Of a stretch of DNA of 64,000 bases, positions 35,664-43,252 are shown one piece after another. The stretch is from Clostridia bacterium (lineage in GTDB: Bacteria > Bacillota > Clostridia > Lutisporales > Lutisporaceae): NCBI GenBank assembly GCA_035628995.1, contig DASPIR010000034.1, forward strand, positions 124,001 to 188,000. The letters run 5' to 3'. Both the position numbers and the translations under genes were made by a program. A model generated the notes under the pieces. That model had not been told where the DNA came from and searched no databases. It saw only the letters and a program-made list of their open reading frames with translations. Every line of letters begins with the position of its first letter. The first letter of the stretch is position 1.

Positions 35664-35905
35664 TTACTCCCACTCTATCGTTGCAGGAGGTTTTGAGGTT
35701 ATATCATACACTATCCTGTTGACATGCTCCACTTCATTTACTATCCTGTTTGAAATCTTCTCAAGCACATCGTAGGGTATCCTCGCCCAATCTGCTGTCA
35801 TTGCATCAGAGCTTGTGACAGCACGGACTGCCACTGTATGGGAATATGTGCGTTCATCTCCCATTACGCCAACAGTTGTGATGTTGGGGAGGCGGTGAAA
35901 TAGTG
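35664..35905 (-). pseudogene. guaA: Displaced 3' fragment of guaA
   Basis: The last 66 codons (35664-35864) encode the same C-terminus as intact GuaA at 41720, with one Val/Ile difference, ending ...[11 protein letters not shown] identity is lower because of synonymous changes, except for a 44-base identical block (about 35716-35759). Homology continues upstream to about 35905 with a one-base deletion, then stops. There is no N-terminal or synthetase part, so it is not functional. It marks one edge of the island and is probably the former end of guaA, or an older copy carried by the element. Confidence 0.9.
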
Positions 35906-35907
35906 TA

Positions 35908-35922
35908 GGTTTTGATTTTTAA
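35908..35922 (+). repeat. Left terminal inverted repeat of the island
   Basis: GGTTTTGATTTTTAA, starting where guaA homology ends. The reverse complement of the right-end copy differs by one extra T. The core GGTTTTGAT recurs directly at 35932-35940. Confidence 0.55.
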
Positions 35923-36341
35923 GTAAGTGACGGTTTTGATGTGTCAACTTGTTAAGTCTCATTATATCTATTTTGTAGACTGAAGACAATCTAACCTCTG
36001 TAAAAATGTTCTTTATTAGCAGTTACAAGTGTTTAGCCATCAGCTTTTATGTTTTGTGTTTTCTACGCCCATTGCAAATAGCCACTTCCCAAGCCTATAT
36101 TCACAGATAAAATCATTCTTTTATTAAATCAGATTACCTCTAGCAGGCAATTCAAAACTTTTTTACTAGATTATTTTCTATAGAATACGTAATTCAGAAA
36201 CTTGCATGTCAGATACATTATTTTAAGTTTCTTTCGAGAAACTTACCCCTTTCAGTTTCTCTATACTCCTATTAACGAATACCATAATTCATGCTTTCCC
36301 ACTTTAAGTTCAAACCAGAATACACGATTAGAATAAGTATT
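35923..36341. other. Island spacer without recognisable gene
   Basis: About 420 AT-rich bases. All six frames are broken and no ribosome site is found. A small hairpin GAGAAACT / AGTTTCTC lies at 36236-36261 without a T-run. It may hold decayed element sequence. Confidence 0.5.
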
Positions 36342-36590
36342 CTATCTATGCTTTTTCAAATTACATAACCAAACAAATAACCAATATGTTTCATCTGGCT
36401 GCTTAGTAATCTTGATAGAAAATTCACCATGCTTTTTCGTTCCATCAATATAATAAGTGCCACTTTCATCTTCTCTCAATGTTACTGGTAAACTTGAGCT
36501 ATTGACCATTCCTAAATCATAAAAACTTGCTATTTCGTGTTCTATTGTTGAATAACTTAGGTTGTCTATTTTTTTGCTAAGATTCTCCAT
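36342..36590 (-). CDS. Small hypothetical protein of the island
   Basis: An 82-residue soluble protein with no cysteine pair or membrane segment; the C-terminal half looks beta-rich (TYYIDGTKKHGEFSIKI). ATG 36590 has GGGGGT six bases upstream. It is the last of the island's minus-strand genes. The family is not recognised. Confidence 0.6.
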   Translation of the reverse strand: MENLSKKIDNLSYSTIEHEIASFYDLGMVNSSSLPVTLREDESGTYYIDGTKKHGEFSIKITKQPDETYWLFVWLCNLKKHR

Positions 36591-36623
36591 ACAGATACCC
36601 CCTGATACAAAGAAAATATAATA

Positions 36624-36995
36624 TTATTTACTACTATTCTTTAATTGTTCTAGTTCACTATAGATATTTTCAGACATCGTTTTAGTATCGTACATATAGT
36701 CATTAACTTCAGTTGTTATTTCCTCTACATTTGGCACAATATCTCGCCAATTAGTTTCAGCATCACTAAATTCTTCTACAAAACTATATAAATCTTCTAC
36801 ACGACTACTAAAATCAGCCATTCTAATATCTAGGTCAAAGGATTCATCATAAATTTGTTTTATACTAGATTCATAATTACTAATTGTTAAGTTTTGTTCG
36901 TTAATTTGCGTTTTTAAGTTACTATTCTCCATAAAGAGATAGCCTGCTACTATTGCTAATACGATTGTGATTATATAAATGCCCTTATTTTTCAT
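36624..36995 (-). CDS. Membrane-anchored coiled-coil protein
   Basis: A 123-residue protein from ATG 36995, chosen for GAGGTG six bases upstream (an in-frame GTG at 37004 overlaps that site). One N-terminal hydrophobic helix (about residues 5-22) is followed by heptad-like sequence rich in Asn, Gln, Ser, Asp and Glu, so a signal anchor with an extracytoplasmic coiled coil is likely. It lies between two other small island genes. No family recognised. Confidence 0.65.
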   Translation of the reverse strand: MKNKGIYIITIVLAIVAGYLFMENSNLKTQINEQNLTISNYESSIKQIYDESFDLDIRMADFSSRVEDLYSFVEEFSDAETNWRDIVPNVEEITTEVNDYMYDTKTMSENIYSELEQLKNSSK

Positions 36996-37049
36996 ACTGA
37001 TCACCTCAAAATGTGAAATACATGGTTGTATACCTATAAGGCGGTTTAT

Positions 37050-37592
37050 TTATTCATTTGCAATAATTTTAATTGTATTTGTTTTATAATCTGCTTTAGC
37101 TAATACTTCATTTAAGACTAAACCACCAAAAGCATTTTTACCTCTGAATTTCATATATACTGTAATTCCATCTCCATCATCTTTATACCTTGTTTCAACA
37201 TGTTCAAAACTCTTTGGGTCATTCATATTATCTTTAATTAATTTCACTAAATCTTTATGACTGCCATCCCATGCACTAAATTGTCCTTCTATCCATGCTT
37301 GATAATTTAGTTTTTCTTGTTCTTCTGGAGATAATGTTGGAGTTGGTTCAGGAGTTGGAGTTGGAGTTGGAGTTGGTGTTACTTCTACAGTCTTTTCTTC
37401 AACCTTTGTTGAATTCGTGTTTTGAGCAGTATTACCTTCATTACTGCTTGACGAACCTAAAAATCCAATTACTAAGAAGAAACATATTACTCCTGCTAAG
37501 ATACCTAATGAAGTTTTCTGAGTCTTTCTTTTCACCAAAATCCCGACCATGATATACGGTACAAGAAGCCACCCTAAAATCTTTTTTACCAC
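37050..37592 (-). CDS. Membrane protein with Thr-Pro repeat linker
   Basis: A 180-residue protein starting with GTG 37592 behind AAAGGAGAG. Two hydrophobic segments (about residues 5-20 and 29-46) precede a linker of alternating Thr-Pro pairs (about residues 72-88). The C-terminal domain of about 85 residues begins near WIEGQFSAWDG and contains DPKSFEH and GGLVLNEVLAKADY. The TP linker suggests the C-terminal domain is held outside the membrane. Domains of this type occur in other Clostridia, but no function is known to me. Confidence 0.7.
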   Translation of the reverse strand: MVKKILGWLLVPYIMVGILVKRKTQKTSLGILAGVICFFLVIGFLGSSSSNEGNTAQNTNSTKVEEKTVEVTPTPTPTPTPEPTPTLSPEEQEKLNYQAWIEGQFSAWDGSHKDLVKLIKDNMNDPKSFEHVETRYKDDGDGITVYMKFRGKNAFGGLVLNEVLAKADYKTNTIKIIANE

Positions 37593-37706
37593 TTAGCATC
37601 TCTCCTTTGATTATCTATTTAAAACTGACCTATTAAATTGCATATATCTACTCTTTATATTCGACATTTTTATATGTATACCTTCTAAAATTTTCCATTG
37701 ATTATC

Positions 37707-37751
37707 AAATAAAAAGTTCATTTCATAAGTCTTATGACCTAAAAAACGAAC
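37707..37751. repeat. Island direct repeat, copy A
   Basis: CAAATAAAAAGTTCATTTC...CCTAAAAAACGAAC, similar over about 46 bases to copy B at 38728-38774, with one or two small gaps. The copies are about 1 kb apart, and the XRE-type gene begins between them. Confidence 0.5.
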
Positions 37752-37770
37752 TATCTGTAGCGCAGATATA

Positions 37771-38589
37771 CTAATCACAATATAGTTGCTTCTCCATCTT
37801 TTTGAAACCCTCAAAAATACCTCTATCACCAATTCTTGCCATCAATAACTTATCTCCAAAATCTTTCAACCGCTCGATATATGAATCACGCATTTCATCT
37901 ATTACCCCTGATTCAAGTATTTTCTTATATTGCTCATACTTTTGTAGCTTTAATTCCAATTTGGTTTTATCATCTATTGTATATACTGATGGGTATTTAA
38001 GATAATATTCTTTATAAAATTCAACAAACTGTTTAGCTTTATCATCAGAGATTTTATCATACAAAAACATTAATTGATTCATAACATAATCATTATTCTT
38101 TCCAATGTTGCCAAACATGCGTCCTAGAATATCACACAAATAATCCGTATCTATCAAATGCAAAACTAGAAGAAACTCACTCAAGTTTGATATTGGATAG
38201 GTTGATTGAATATACTCATAAAAAAGTATATTAGAATCAAATTCTTCCTTACATTTGCAATCATAATCTACATCATTAAGGTCACCTTGTTTATAACGCT
38301 TTCTTTTTATTTCTTCAGCTTCTCTCCAGTCTTGTTCCTCTATTGACTTTTGTACTTGCCCATTTAGAACTAAAATATCAAATAAATCAACATTAAAAAA
38401 TTTAGCCATTAAAACTAAATAATCAATAGATGGTCTTGCTTTATTATTACACCAATTTTCCACAGTTCGTTTAGTTACGCACATCGCTTCTGCGAAAGTC
38501 TTATGAGAAATATGTTGTGCTAATAAAGCTCGTATATTATCTGAAGTAGCTTCCCAATTTACTGCAAAGTAGTCATGCACATTTATCAT
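37771..38589 (-). CDS. XRE-type HTH regulator
   Basis: A 272-residue protein. A helix-turn-helix of the Cro/C1 type lies at about residues 15-75 (SHKTFAEAMCVTKRTVENW, then DYLVLMAKFFNVDLFDIL). The remaining 190 residues are alpha-helical without recognisable ligand or protease motif. ATG 38589 has AAAGGAGGATG upstream, an excellent ribosome site. Transcribed with the same polarity as the KAP gene, it is the likely local regulator of the island. Unlike phage repressors it has no C-terminal peptidase domain. Confidence 0.8.
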   Translation of the reverse strand: MINVHDYFAVNWEATSDNIRALLAQHISHKTFAEAMCVTKRTVENWCNNKARPSIDYLVLMAKFFNVDLFDILVLNGQVQKSIEEQDWREAEEIKRKRYKQGDLNDVDYDCKCKEEFDSNILFYEYIQSTYPISNLSEFLLVLHLIDTDYLCDILGRMFGNIGKNNDYVMNQLMFLYDKISDDKAKQFVEFYKEYYLKYPSVYTIDDKTKLELKLQKYEQYKKILESGVIDEMRDSYIERLKDFGDKLLMARIGDRGIFEGFKKMEKQLYCD

Positions 38590-38854
38590 TTAATCATCCT
38601 CCTTTGCTTAAAAGAATACCATCAGCAATTTGTATAAGCAAGGTAATTGAATTTCCTTTGAAGTATAATAATTTTTATATGTTTATATTCATACCCATTG
38701 CCCCCCAACGCTTACGCATGTATGTACCAAAATAAAAGTCCATCTCATAAGCCTATTCGACCTAAAAAATGAACCCTGCGTGGGAATAGTTGTGCTACCC
38801 CCTTTATCAAGCTTTATAAGTGTAAAGTACCTGAGAAGTACCCCTATTATGTCT
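38590..38854. other. Spacer between KAP gene and XRE gene, with direct repeat copy B
   Basis: Holds repeat copy B (38728-38774) and otherwise no open frame I can support. It would contain the promoter of the XRE gene. Confidence 0.45.
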
Positions 38855-40213
38855 TCATATTAAGTTAAAGTTATCGAGAAAATCTAATTGTCTAAATAAT
38901 TTGCACCCCTGTTTATCCCATAGATGATTCAAATCGTAGCTTGTATCAGGATATGTATCTTCTTTTCCAATTTTAGAGTTACCCTCTCGAATCTGTATAT
39001 CACTTGCCGTATTCCTATGTAGAAACTTATTCAGTGTCTCATGAAATATAGATTTAATCCATTCACTACTATAATATCCATCATCAACGATATTCACTTT
39101 ATTAGTCCTCAACACATCTAAAATATCACTTGCCGAGTAATCTTTAGAAACAAGTTTTTGGTACAGATTCTGCTCCTTCATTTTTACTACTACCAATAAC
39201 GCATAAAGTATCCCATTAGAAAGTAGGAATGTTTCTTTATAGTTTTCTTCACTATCATATAGTGGCGTTGTAGGTAAAAGAATATTTAAGTAGTAAAATA
39301 ATTTATCTAAGTCACGTAAACTAAAGTCATAAATCCTAACATATTCATCTAAAAAGAACCAAAACCATTTAGATTTTTTATTGTTTTCTAACCCAATTCT
39401 TTGTATCAACATCTCAGCATATTTCTTCTTATCAGGTAATGGTAACATGTAATCTATGTCAATAAATCTACGCAGATAACCTAAAGAATCCATGCCATTG
39501 CCGTACATGGTAGAAATTGAGTGAGATAACTGGCTCTTATCAAGCGATAAGACAAAAATGTAATTATCAATATTAAATAGATGCTTAATCCTTTCTAATG
39601 TCTCTACTGCAAATGAAGGTCTACACCTATCTAGCTCATCAATGAAAATAACTATTTTCTTTCCTTGCTCCTTTTGAAATTCTGTAAGTGCATTGCAAAA
39701 CTCCTCTTTCGCCTTTTTTTCTTCTCTTAACTTTCTAAATTCTAGTTCACCAAAAGAACCCACAAGTTCAGTCAATTGAGACTCATTATATTCTCCAAAT
39801 TCTACATCTTTTAAGTCTAATATGCCATGAGTTAAAATTTTTAGTGCAGTAGGAATTGCTTTTTTTAATAAGGGTTTACTAAATGTCTTTATCCTCTCGA
39901 AACCGCTACTTTCCTTTTTATTAAAATATTCTTCAAAAATACCCAAAATTGCAAGCAATGGGTCATTAAAGTCATCGTTATCCCAAGCATTATAGTATAA
40001 TGATATAAAGTTATCATTACTATCCAAACTGCATTTCCACATCTTAACAAATGTAGTCTTACCTGTTCCCCATGCGGAATCGATACTTAGGACTATACTA
40101 CCACTAGCTTTCTCAATGATTTTTGTAAGGTTATCTGCTATAACTTTTCTGTCTAGAATATCATTTTTAAAAGGTTCACTCGGTTCAATTTCAATAGTAT
40201 TATTTGAAAACAT
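38855..40213 (-). CDS. KAP-family P-loop NTPase
   Basis: A 452-residue STAND-like NTPase of the KAP class. Walker A is AWGTGKTT (residues 47-54). Walker B is VIFIDELDRCRP (188-199), with the Cys-Arg-Pro that marks KAP proteins. SLDKSQLSHSI and the LRRFIDIDY segment follow. The region between the Walker motifs has only short hydrophobic stretches, so this is probably the soluble kind. ATG 40213 has GAGGAGG six bases before it. Some KAP NTPases, such as PifA, exclude phages. Here it follows a membrane/coiled-coil gene on an island, so defence is a reasonable inference but not shown. Confidence 0.9.
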   Translation of the reverse strand: MFSNNTIEIEPSEPFKNDILDRKVIADNLTKIIEKASGSIVLSIDSAWGTGKTTFVKMWKCSLDSNDNFISLYYNAWDNDDFNDPLLAILGIFEEYFNKKESSGFERIKTFSKPLLKKAIPTALKILTHGILDLKDVEFGEYNESQLTELVGSFGELEFRKLREEKKAKEEFCNALTEFQKEQGKKIVIFIDELDRCRPSFAVETLERIKHLFNIDNYIFVLSLDKSQLSHSISTMYGNGMDSLGYLRRFIDIDYMLPLPDKKKYAEMLIQRIGLENNKKSKWFWFFLDEYVRIYDFSLRDLDKLFYYLNILLPTTPLYDSEENYKETFLLSNGILYALLVVVKMKEQNLYQKLVSKDYSASDILDVLRTNKVNIVDDGYYSSEWIKSIFHETLNKFLHRNTASDIQIREGNSKIGKEDTYPDTSYDLNHLWDKQGCKLFRQLDFLDNFNLI

Positions 40214-40303
40214 ATATATCCTCCTCATTCAAGAAATATAAAAAAAGTTCCTTTAATAATAATTCTATATTACCTAAATTTATCCTTTAATTGCCAAATA
40301 AAA

Positions 40304-40326
40304 AGCAGGTCATTAAGAAACCTGCT
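40304..40326 (-). terminator. Terminator between the membrane protein gene and the KAP gene
   Basis: AGCAGGT / ACCTGCT arms with a 9-base loop, then TTTTTAT on the minus strand. It suggests the upstream gene and the KAP gene are separate or attenuated units. Confidence 0.7.
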
Positions 40327-40398
40327 CTAGTTCAATAAAAATTACCCTTTTTTCATTAATTCAGTTCTTATAAAGTTGGAAGGTAGATTACAGAAACA

Positions 40399-40995
40399 CT
40401 AGATAACCCCAAGTATGCTTCTAAACTCTACCTCAAGTTTCTTTTTTAGTTGTGGAAGATTATAATTTAACATAAATTCAATTTGCTTAATTGATTCCTC
40501 ATCAAATGGCGGTAATCCGGCATTTGTTCTATGTGAATAATCAGGAATACCTGTTAATAAATAAACTGTTTCAATATCATCAATTATCTTACATATATCT
40601 TCATTAAAAACAATTTTATTTTCTTCTGCATATTGTAGCAAATCAACTTGAATACGTACTGCATCTTTTATCATATCAATAGCTTTCGGTGACAATTTTT
40701 TTAATTCATTAATAAAAGTTCTACACATACCCTCAGTTTTAACTATTTTTTTATAAAGTTCTTTAATAATAAATGCCCTATCTTCGTGCAATCTTGAAAA
40801 CTTTATTTCATTTTGCTTAGTTTGTATTAAGAGCTCAGCTTTATATTTCTCAACTTCTTTTTCCATACTTATTTTAAAACTCTCAATATTCCTGTCTAAA
40901 ACCTGAATAATTATTTTGTTTGCTAAGTAACCTATAAGAAATGCAACTGAGACTCCTGCAAAAGAATACTTTAATATTTCTTGAAGATATTCCAA
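40399..40995 (-). CDS. Membrane-anchored coiled-coil protein next to KAP NTPase
   Basis: About 198 residues. I choose TTG 40995 because AAGGAAGTGA, one mismatch from the ideal ribosome site, lies six bases before it; a GTG at 41004 overlaps that site. One hydrophobic helix (about residues 8-28) is followed by a Lys/Glu-rich coiled coil (about 30-75) and a helical C-terminal domain. The topology suggests the long part faces the cytoplasm. No family recognised. As the immediate upstream neighbour of the KAP NTPase it is a candidate partner. Confidence 0.7.
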   Translation of the reverse strand: MEYLQEILKYSFAGVSVAFLIGYLANKIIIQVLDRNIESFKISMEKEVEKYKAELLIQTKQNEIKFSRLHEDRAFIIKELYKKIVKTEGMCRTFINELKKLSPKAIDMIKDAVRIQVDLLQYAEENKIVFNEDICKIIDDIETVYLLTGIPDYSHRTNAGLPPFDEESIKQIEFMLNYNLPQLKKKLEVEFRSILGVI

Positions 40996-41004
40996 TAATA
41001 TCAC

Positions 41005-41215
41005 TTCCTTCTATTTCCATGTTAGCAAACATAAAAACGAAAAGCAATATCGTTAGCGATATTAGCAAAGCTGGCGACCGTTGCGCCAGTGTCATTCTAT
41101 TTTTTATCGGTTATTCATAATTTTCCCAGTGTGTAGGGACGGAAGTGCTATGTCCTATATATCTAAACCCAAATGCACAAAAACTGGTAAGTACCGCCCC
41201 CATCCATATTAAAAA
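41005..41215. other. Island spacer with small palindromes
   Basis: No gene. It holds the palindrome AATATCG-TTAG-CGATATT (about 41067-41084) and CTGGCG / CGCCAG. A GTAGGGAC...GTCC segment near 41134 resembles a REP element on the plus strand, but its arms pair poorly. Confidence 0.5.
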
Positions 41216-41239
41216 GAGAAGGGATTAAATACCCTTCTC
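41216..41239 (-). terminator. Terminator of the recombinase remnant
   Basis: GAGAAGGG / CCCTTCTC arms with an 8-base loop, then TTTTTAAT on the minus strand; it overlaps the end of the gene. Confidence 0.75.
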
Positions 41240-41581
41240 CTCTTCATATTGCTTCTTATATCTATAAAATGTCGGCTTCGTCAATCCTAATTGCTTCATA
41301 CATTCAAAAGGCTTCAACTCTTTTGATATTACTTTGTTATATTCTTTTTCAAAGGTTTTATAATCTATTGCTTTTGGTCTACCATATTTCTCCCATTCTC
41401 CACGCTCTTTCATTGCCTGTATACCTTCAGTTTGTCGCTTTTCTCTTTTTTGCATTTCTGCATGTGCAAATGTAGCATACATTTCAATCAACATATTGTT
41501 AATAGCCTCCATTATCATTGTTCCTGTACAATCTTCCATCTTAGTATAATCAACTAATGTTGTTGGTATTTCTATTATCAT
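41225..41581 (-). pseudogene. Truncated serine recombinase (resolvase family), C-terminal half
   Basis: 118 residues that match the second half of resolvase/invertase proteins: the long E helix (NMLIEMYATFAHAEMQKREK), the RQTEGIQAMKERG linker, GRPK, and a C-terminal HTH (LGLTKPTFYRYKKQY). The N-terminal catalytic domain with the active Ser and Arg residues is missing. Only 138 bases separate it from the guaA stop, so the missing part is deleted. An AGGAGT site precedes ATG 41581, so the DNA-binding half could still be made. Confidence 0.8.
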
Positions 41582-41615
41582 TGCTCTACTCCTAATGACT
41601 TATGCTGACATACAA

Positions 41616-41663
41616 AAGGCGGTTTCGAATGCCTAAAAAACAGGCGAAATTCAAAACCACCTT
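41616..41663 (-). terminator. Hairpin downstream of intact guaA
   Basis: On the minus strand AAGGTGGTTTTGAATTTCGCC pairs imperfectly with GGCATTCGAAACCGCCTT, ending in TTTTG. Probable terminator now serving guaA, different from the one beside the displaced tail. Confidence 0.6.
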
Positions 41664-41681
41664 GACTACTTATTTTTACTT

Positions 41682-41697
41682 TTAAAAATCAAAAACC
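41682..41697 (-). repeat. Right terminal inverted repeat of the island
   Basis: Plus strand TTAAAAATCAAAAACC, the inverse of the left copy with one extra base. It lies 22 bases from the guaA stop codon. Confidence 0.55.
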
Positions 41698-41719
41698 CAG
41701 TATTTCCAACCCCTAAACC

Positions 41720-43252
41720 CTACTCCCACTCAATCGTTGCCGGTGGTTTGGAGGTTATATCGTAAACTATTCTATTTACGTGCTCCACTTCATTTACTAT
41801 CCTGTTTGAAATCTTCTCAAGCACGTCATAAGGTATCCTCGCCCAGTCTGCCGTCATTGCGTCAGAGCTTGTAACCGCACGTATTGCCACTGTATGGGAA
41901 TATGTACGTTCATCACCCATTACGCCAACTGTTGTGATGTTTGGGAGGGCTGTGAAGTATTGCCATATGCTTCTTTCCAGTCCTGCTTTTTTAATCTCTT
42001 CTCTGAGAATCGCATCGCTTTCCTTTACTATATGGAGCTTTTCCTTTGTGATTTCACCCAGTACTCTTATTCCAAGACCAGGCCCAGGGAAGGGCTGTCT
42101 CCATACCAAATCCTCAGGTATTCCAAGCTCAAGGCCTACCAGCCTTACCTCATCCTTAAAGAGAGTGTTCAAAGGCTCTATTAGTTTGAACTGCATGTCT
42201 TCCGGAAGTCCACCCACATTATGGTGGGACTTTATTGTTGCGGCTGTTTTGGTTCCGCTCTCTATGATATCAGGGTATATTGTTCCTTGAACCAGGAAAT
42301 CAATATCCCCAAGCCTGTTAGCCTCTGCTTCGAAAACCCTGATAAACTCCTCGCCAATTATCTTTCTCTTACGCTCAGGATCGGAAACACCTTCAAGTTT
42401 GCCAAGGAATCTATCCTGTGCATTCACTCTGATAAGGTTCATGTCAAAGCGTTTCCTGAATATTTCCTCCACTTGGTCTCCTTCATTCTTTCGGAGCAAT
42501 CCATGGTCTACGAATATGCAGGTCAGCTGGTCGCCTATCGCCTTATGCACCAATACAGCCGCGACAGAAGAATCCACTCCGCCGCTCAATGCACAGATAA
42601 CCTTCTTGCCGCCTGCCAGCGCTTTTATCTGGGCTACTTTCTCTTCAATGAAATTCCCCATTGTCCAATCCCCAGACAGTTCACATACGCCATACAGGAA
42701 GTTTTTCAATATCTGCTTTCCATATTGTGTGTGCTCCACCTCAGGATGAAACTGAACTCCATAAAGCTTTTTTGCTTTATTGCCCATGGCCGCTACCGGA
42801 CATGTCTCTGTAGTTCCTGTAATATCAAAACCAGCTGGAGGTGTATCTACAAAACAGGTGTGGCTCATCCAGCAGACACTGTCCTGCGACACTTCCTTGA
42901 ATAATGCATCCTCTTTCAAGTTCACTTGTGTCTTGCCGTATTCCCGCTTTTCAGCTCTTGCTACTTTTCCGCCCATCATATGTGCCATCAACTGCGCTCC
43001 ATAGCAGATGCCTAGAACAGGCACTCCCAGTTCAAACAGCCCCGGATCGCACTTAGGGGATCCTTCATCATATACGCTTGCTGGCCCTCCGGTGAATATT
43101 ATACCCTTGGGGCTCTTCCTTTTTATTTCATCCAGGCTTATATCATAGGGCACTACCTCGCAGTATACATTAACTTCTCTTACCCTGCGGGCTATAAGCT
43201 GATTGTATTGACCCCCGAAGTCCAGTATCAATACCAATTCCTTGTTCGCCAT
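41720..43252 (-). CDS. guaA: GMP synthase (glutamine-hydrolysing) GuaA
   Basis: Converts XMP to GMP. I start at ATG 43252 (510 residues) with GGAGAG six bases before it. The class I glutaminase domain is residues 1-190 (nucleophile Cys in VLGICYGAQ, His-x-Glu in FHPEVEH). The PP-loop of the synthetase is [12 protein letters not shown], and the C-terminal dimer domain ends PPATIEWE. The 3' end is the integration site of the neighbouring island; the present last codons may derive from the element, since they differ synonymously from the displaced tail. Confidence 0.97.

Follow-up and report, generated by a model that had tools for sequence, protein, structure and literature searches.

A PDC-S20-type KAP NTPase on a guaA island of a Clostridia bacterium, a probable stand-alone defence candidate

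The stretch of DNA analysed here (the window, 64,000 nucleotides from a Clostridia bacterium) carries a guaA island of about 5.8 kb (35893-41720), flanked by a 228-bp duplication of the 3' end of guaA. The two direct repeats (35665-35892 and 41721-41948) are 89% identical, and the G+C content between them is 28-31%, compared with about 43% outside the island. The initial annotation had placed a guaA island around three genes at 37771-40995, namely a transmembrane (TM)/coiled-coil protein, a KAP-class NTPase and an XRE-type regulator. The repeats and the base composition bear the island out and give it a larger extent, and open reading frames (ORFs) and profile matches confirm all three genes, with KAP in the middle. 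On the minus strand they are transcribed in the order CC (the coiled-coil protein, 40995-40399), KAP (40213-38855) and XRE (38589-37771). The features of the island are as follows.

35665-35892, minus strand: displaced original 3' end of guaA, a remnant with a 66-aa ORF, left island boundary (228-nt repeat; GMP_synt_C, E 3.7e-35)
36342-36590, minus strand: 82-aa island ORF of no family (no match in Pfam, PHROGs or NCBIfam; chance-level PADLOC match only)
36624-37004, minus strand: 126-aa membrane/coiled-coil ORF (DUF948-like, below the cut-off)
37050-37592, minus strand: 180-aa membrane-anchored protein with a TP-repeat linker and a C-terminal domain of phages (phrog_3403, E 3e-20)
37771-38589, minus strand: XRE/HTH_3 regulator, 272 aa (HTH_3, E 1.1e-9)
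38855-40213, minus strand: KAP P-loop NTPase, 452 aa, assigned to the PDC-S20 family (PF07693, 138.5 bits against a cut-off of 20, E 3.5e-40; PDLC04959, E 8.7e-110)
40302-40328, minus strand: terminator-like hairpin with a T tail, between the CC and KAP genes (terminator scan, folding)
40399-40995, minus strand: CC protein, 198 aa, with an N-terminal TM helix, a coiled coil and a helical C-terminus (ORF; relatives at 25-36% identity)
41225-41581, minus strand: C-terminal fragment of a serine recombinase of the DNA invertase family (phrog_125 from position 114 of 254, E 1.5e-13; PF00239 positions 107-145)
41721-41948, minus strand: island-borne replacement 3' end of guaA, right boundary (repeat; comparison with guaA of the genus)

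The KAP gene spans 38855-40228 in the ORF list, its likelier start being the ATG at 40213, 6 nt after an AGGAGG. The CC gene starts with TTG at 40995, a GTG at 41004 being also possible.

All five guaA sequences of the genus that were compared resemble the left copy of the repeat more than the right one (for example, 86.1 vs 83.7%). The left copy is therefore the original guaA end of the host, which now lies displaced at 35665-35892, while the functional gene ends with a 3' part brought in by the island. The island thus both split the gene and restored it. The sole trace of a recombinase on the island is the fragment at 41225-41581, which lacks the catalytic N-terminus, so the island looks either decayed or mobilised from outside.

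KAP is an intact P-loop NTPase. Its Walker A (GTGKTT) and Walker B (IFIDELDRCRP) motifs are readable in the protein, and the GxGKT and DELDRCRP positions are invariant or nearly so among homologues, in keeping with the initial description of both motifs as intact and of CRP as following Walker B. Residues 8-419 align to positions 4-416 of the 464 in PDLC04959, the PADLOC model of PDC-S20, and a match of this extent places KAP in that family. The suggestion that the system might be undescribed therefore does not hold for the NTPase: PADLOC already lists PDC-S20 as a putative defence candidate made up of one gene, not yet validated. PDCs are putative defence candidates, mostly of single genes, that were obtained by guilt-by-embedding, and most of them are unvalidated (PMC12988326). 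In the literature searched, neither the name PDC-S20 nor an experimentally validated member was found. No TM segment is evident in KAP by a crude hydropathy scan (no segment exceeds 1.55), and between Walker A and Walker B the highest mean hydropathy over 19 residues is 0.85. The C-terminal 100 residues contain no recognised effector domain and have no known fold assignment.

The likeness of KAP to known systems varies in extent. To PDC-S20 it is complete in what was compared: the profile matches at full length, the gene occurs alone, it is mobile and found in defence islands, and no tested feature differs. Tmn is a validated single-gene KAP NTPase defence with two unusual TM domains (PMC11846954). 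The island KAP, as a candidate, resembles it in being a KAP NTPase that acts alone, but has no TM domain by hydropathy. QatA is a KAP protein that forms hepta- or octamers and binds both ss and dsDNA (PMC13279940). KAP shares the NTPase domain (PADLOC QatA, E 5e-18) but with 68 bits stays below the cut-off of 600, and no qatB, qatC (QueC-like) or qatD (TatD) is present among the island ORFs. PifA of plasmid F also has the KAP domain (E 3.7e-21), but the island protein has 452 residues against about 720, and the rest of PifA is missing. An identification as PifA was rejected, as the profile matched over 22-262 of 720 only. By sequence, no relative of KAP was found among solved structures. The AlphaFold2 model of KAP (pLDDT 76) has as its best solved-structure match RdrA of RADAR (Z 18.2, rmsd 3.8, 269 residues, 18% identity). 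The next different protein, ORC2, follows at a moderate distance (Z 14.4), and the Foldseek TM-scores are low overall (0.37-0.46); the likeness is therefore taken to reflect a shared core fold, which may be the AAA/STAND core alone, and not membership in RADAR. KAP is also about half the length of RdrA, and no gene for the RdrB adenosine deaminase is found among the island ORFs.

Relatives of KAP are patchily distributed. Of 391 genomes of the class, 26 have them, as do 38 of 398 genomes of the phylum at a loose threshold, and they are also present among plasmid and phage records. Peptide-pattern scans with KAP alone gave no match in genome or viral contigs, whereas an alignment query recovered viral relatives: 305 stretches in IMG/VR encode them. 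Among the best 80 of these 305 loci, 46 have no same-strand gene within 60 bp of KAP, and the most widely shared neighbour families, which are opposite-strand or phage genes, reach 11 loci at most. The viral KAP genes occupy varied accessory positions. No obligatory partner emerges from these comparisons, there being no common neighbour family and neither CC nor XRE at the other KAP loci compared.

In bacterial genomes, the closest relatives of KAP lie in defence islands. The closest relative (G599, 53% identity) lies beside genes for McrBC-like DUF2357/PDDEXK_7 plus AAA_5 and for GmrSD_N; few deep forks of the KAP tree are resolved, and only the pairing with G599 was used. The next closest (G336, 46%) has DUF4062 and TmtA-like neighbours. 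A type I restriction-modification operon of G183 (L042, 5986-13736) holds its KAP gene between hsdS and hsdR, and the gaps are shorter than 25 bp.

Other arrangements were also seen. The genome under study has a second, divergent KAP gene (L041, contig C1, 3527-14547), with an integrase, a TIR/SEFIR protein and an HSP90-like ATPase protein nearby and a Cthe_2314-type HEPN gene 178 bp downstream; a gene readable as rplJ comes just before this second defence-like island. At L051 (6261-9235), a prophage head gene operon holds KAP between Mu F-like and capsid scaffold genes. At L040 (6316-8932), the DNA-invertase-like gene near KAP appears to be split, as if by an insertion, its two ORFs being separated by about 2 kb. 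At L177 (3292-5476, genome G762), the KAP start overlaps the end of a gene for an unrelated two-TM coiled-coil protein; this was the one case seen in which KAP clearly shares an operon with a membrane protein gene.

The CC protein belongs to a different and smaller group. Its relatives, at 25-36% identity, are found in Clostridia and on two plasmids, one cyanobacterial (Synechococcus) and one haloarchaeal (Haloferax), which makes CC a member of a real family, rare and widely scattered. Scans for CC returned one genome locus and one viral locus, both of the same sequence, and nothing further. One clostridial relative (G011) is in a prophage, directly before the terminase genes. Another (G439; L176, 1662-13301) shares its island with genes for an EcoRI-type methylase, a GmrSD-HNH nuclease and a Ser/Thr kinase, and with PDC-S46. 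A weak match in G177 (22%, 131 aa) was discarded as due to chance or to coiled-coil likeness: the protein is short, the sequence is HTH-like and its gene adjoins an SRP54-like gene. The structure model of CC is unusable (pLDDT 46), and a sequence comparison of CC with solved structures gave nothing meaningful.

The initial annotation had raised the possibility that KAP and CC form an undescribed two-gene abortive system, in which the NTPase would sense the phage and the membrane protein would execute the response. The two genes are adjacent on the same strand with a gap of 170 bp, both families are found in defence islands or prophages, and the unrelated protein that precedes KAP in G762 suggests that a membrane companion may be non-homologous. 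However, when conservation of the pair was checked, co-occurrence was found nowhere else among the genomes, plasmids and 80 viral loci, the outcome that the initial annotation had itself counted as telling against the pair. No KAP adjoins any of the CC relatives outside the genome under study (G011, G439 and the two plasmids), the genomes of the two clear bacterial relatives, G011 and G439, give no KAP match when searched, and none of the 80 viral KAP loci, nor any other KAP locus compared, contains CC. TM proteins are encoded upstream of viral KAP genes in 11 of 42 cases vs 111 of 630 background pairs, an enrichment that is not clear. A terminator-like hairpin separates the two genes. It is the sole site found by the terminator scan of the island (fold z -1.8), but 1.7 are expected in shuffles, and because the overall yield of the scan is no higher than that from shuffles, the hairpin alone is weak evidence. 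Since CC adjoins KAP nowhere else among the loci compared, it is probably an independent passenger, a neighbour and not a partner, and the two-gene system is improbable. CC may possibly have a defence role of its own. That it founds an unnamed mobile family of small membrane coiled-coil proteins, is in its own right a defence or exclusion protein not yet catalogued, and has here been recruited as the membrane effector of KAP is the least probable of the readings considered. Hardly better placed is a pairing of KAP with XRE, as a toxic NTPase under HTH control like the regulator-gated abortive modules: the XRE gene comes directly after KAP in the same orientation, but the gap is 265 bp and no XRE relative adjoins the other KAP genes compared.

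KAP might instead serve the element that carries it, in the maintenance, development or packaging of a prophage or island, with no role in defence. Many KAP genes are inside prophages, some of them in a head gene operon (L051) or near terminase (L043, L054), and KAP genes are found near recombinases. Other relatives, however, are in restriction operons and in defence islands without phage genes, and in phages KAP is patchy and variable in position, as accessory genes are. Carrier service is the strongest of the alternatives and still unlikely. We favour, with a probability of about 0.6, the reading that KAP is a stand-alone anti-phage or superinfection-exclusion protein of the PDC-S20 type, on a decayed mobile guaA island whose accessory genes are unrelated to one another and on which CC is a passenger. 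By analogy with RdrA and QatA, KAP would assemble into an ATP-driven ring. The ring would detect and engage phage nucleic acid or a phage complex, and ATP hydrolysis would drive the arrest of phage development. Both ring assembly and nucleic acid binding are borrowed here from distant KAP relatives.

The proposal of a defence function thus stands for KAP, which matches PDC-S20 and has relatives in prophages and in restriction and defence islands, and falls for the two-gene unit. The locus is an ordinary but sound defence candidate of a catalogued single-gene family. The claim of an undescribed two-gene system is closed by these results and the NTPase is placed in the PDC-S20 candidate family. 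CC stands for a small mobile family of membrane proteins that is not yet catalogued, one of whose members is in a restriction/defence island. For PDC-S20, the KAP gene inside a type I operon, the relatives in defence islands and the many prophage copies add strong embedding evidence, and the model of KAP offers a structural lead that may connect this family to the ring ATPase of RADAR.
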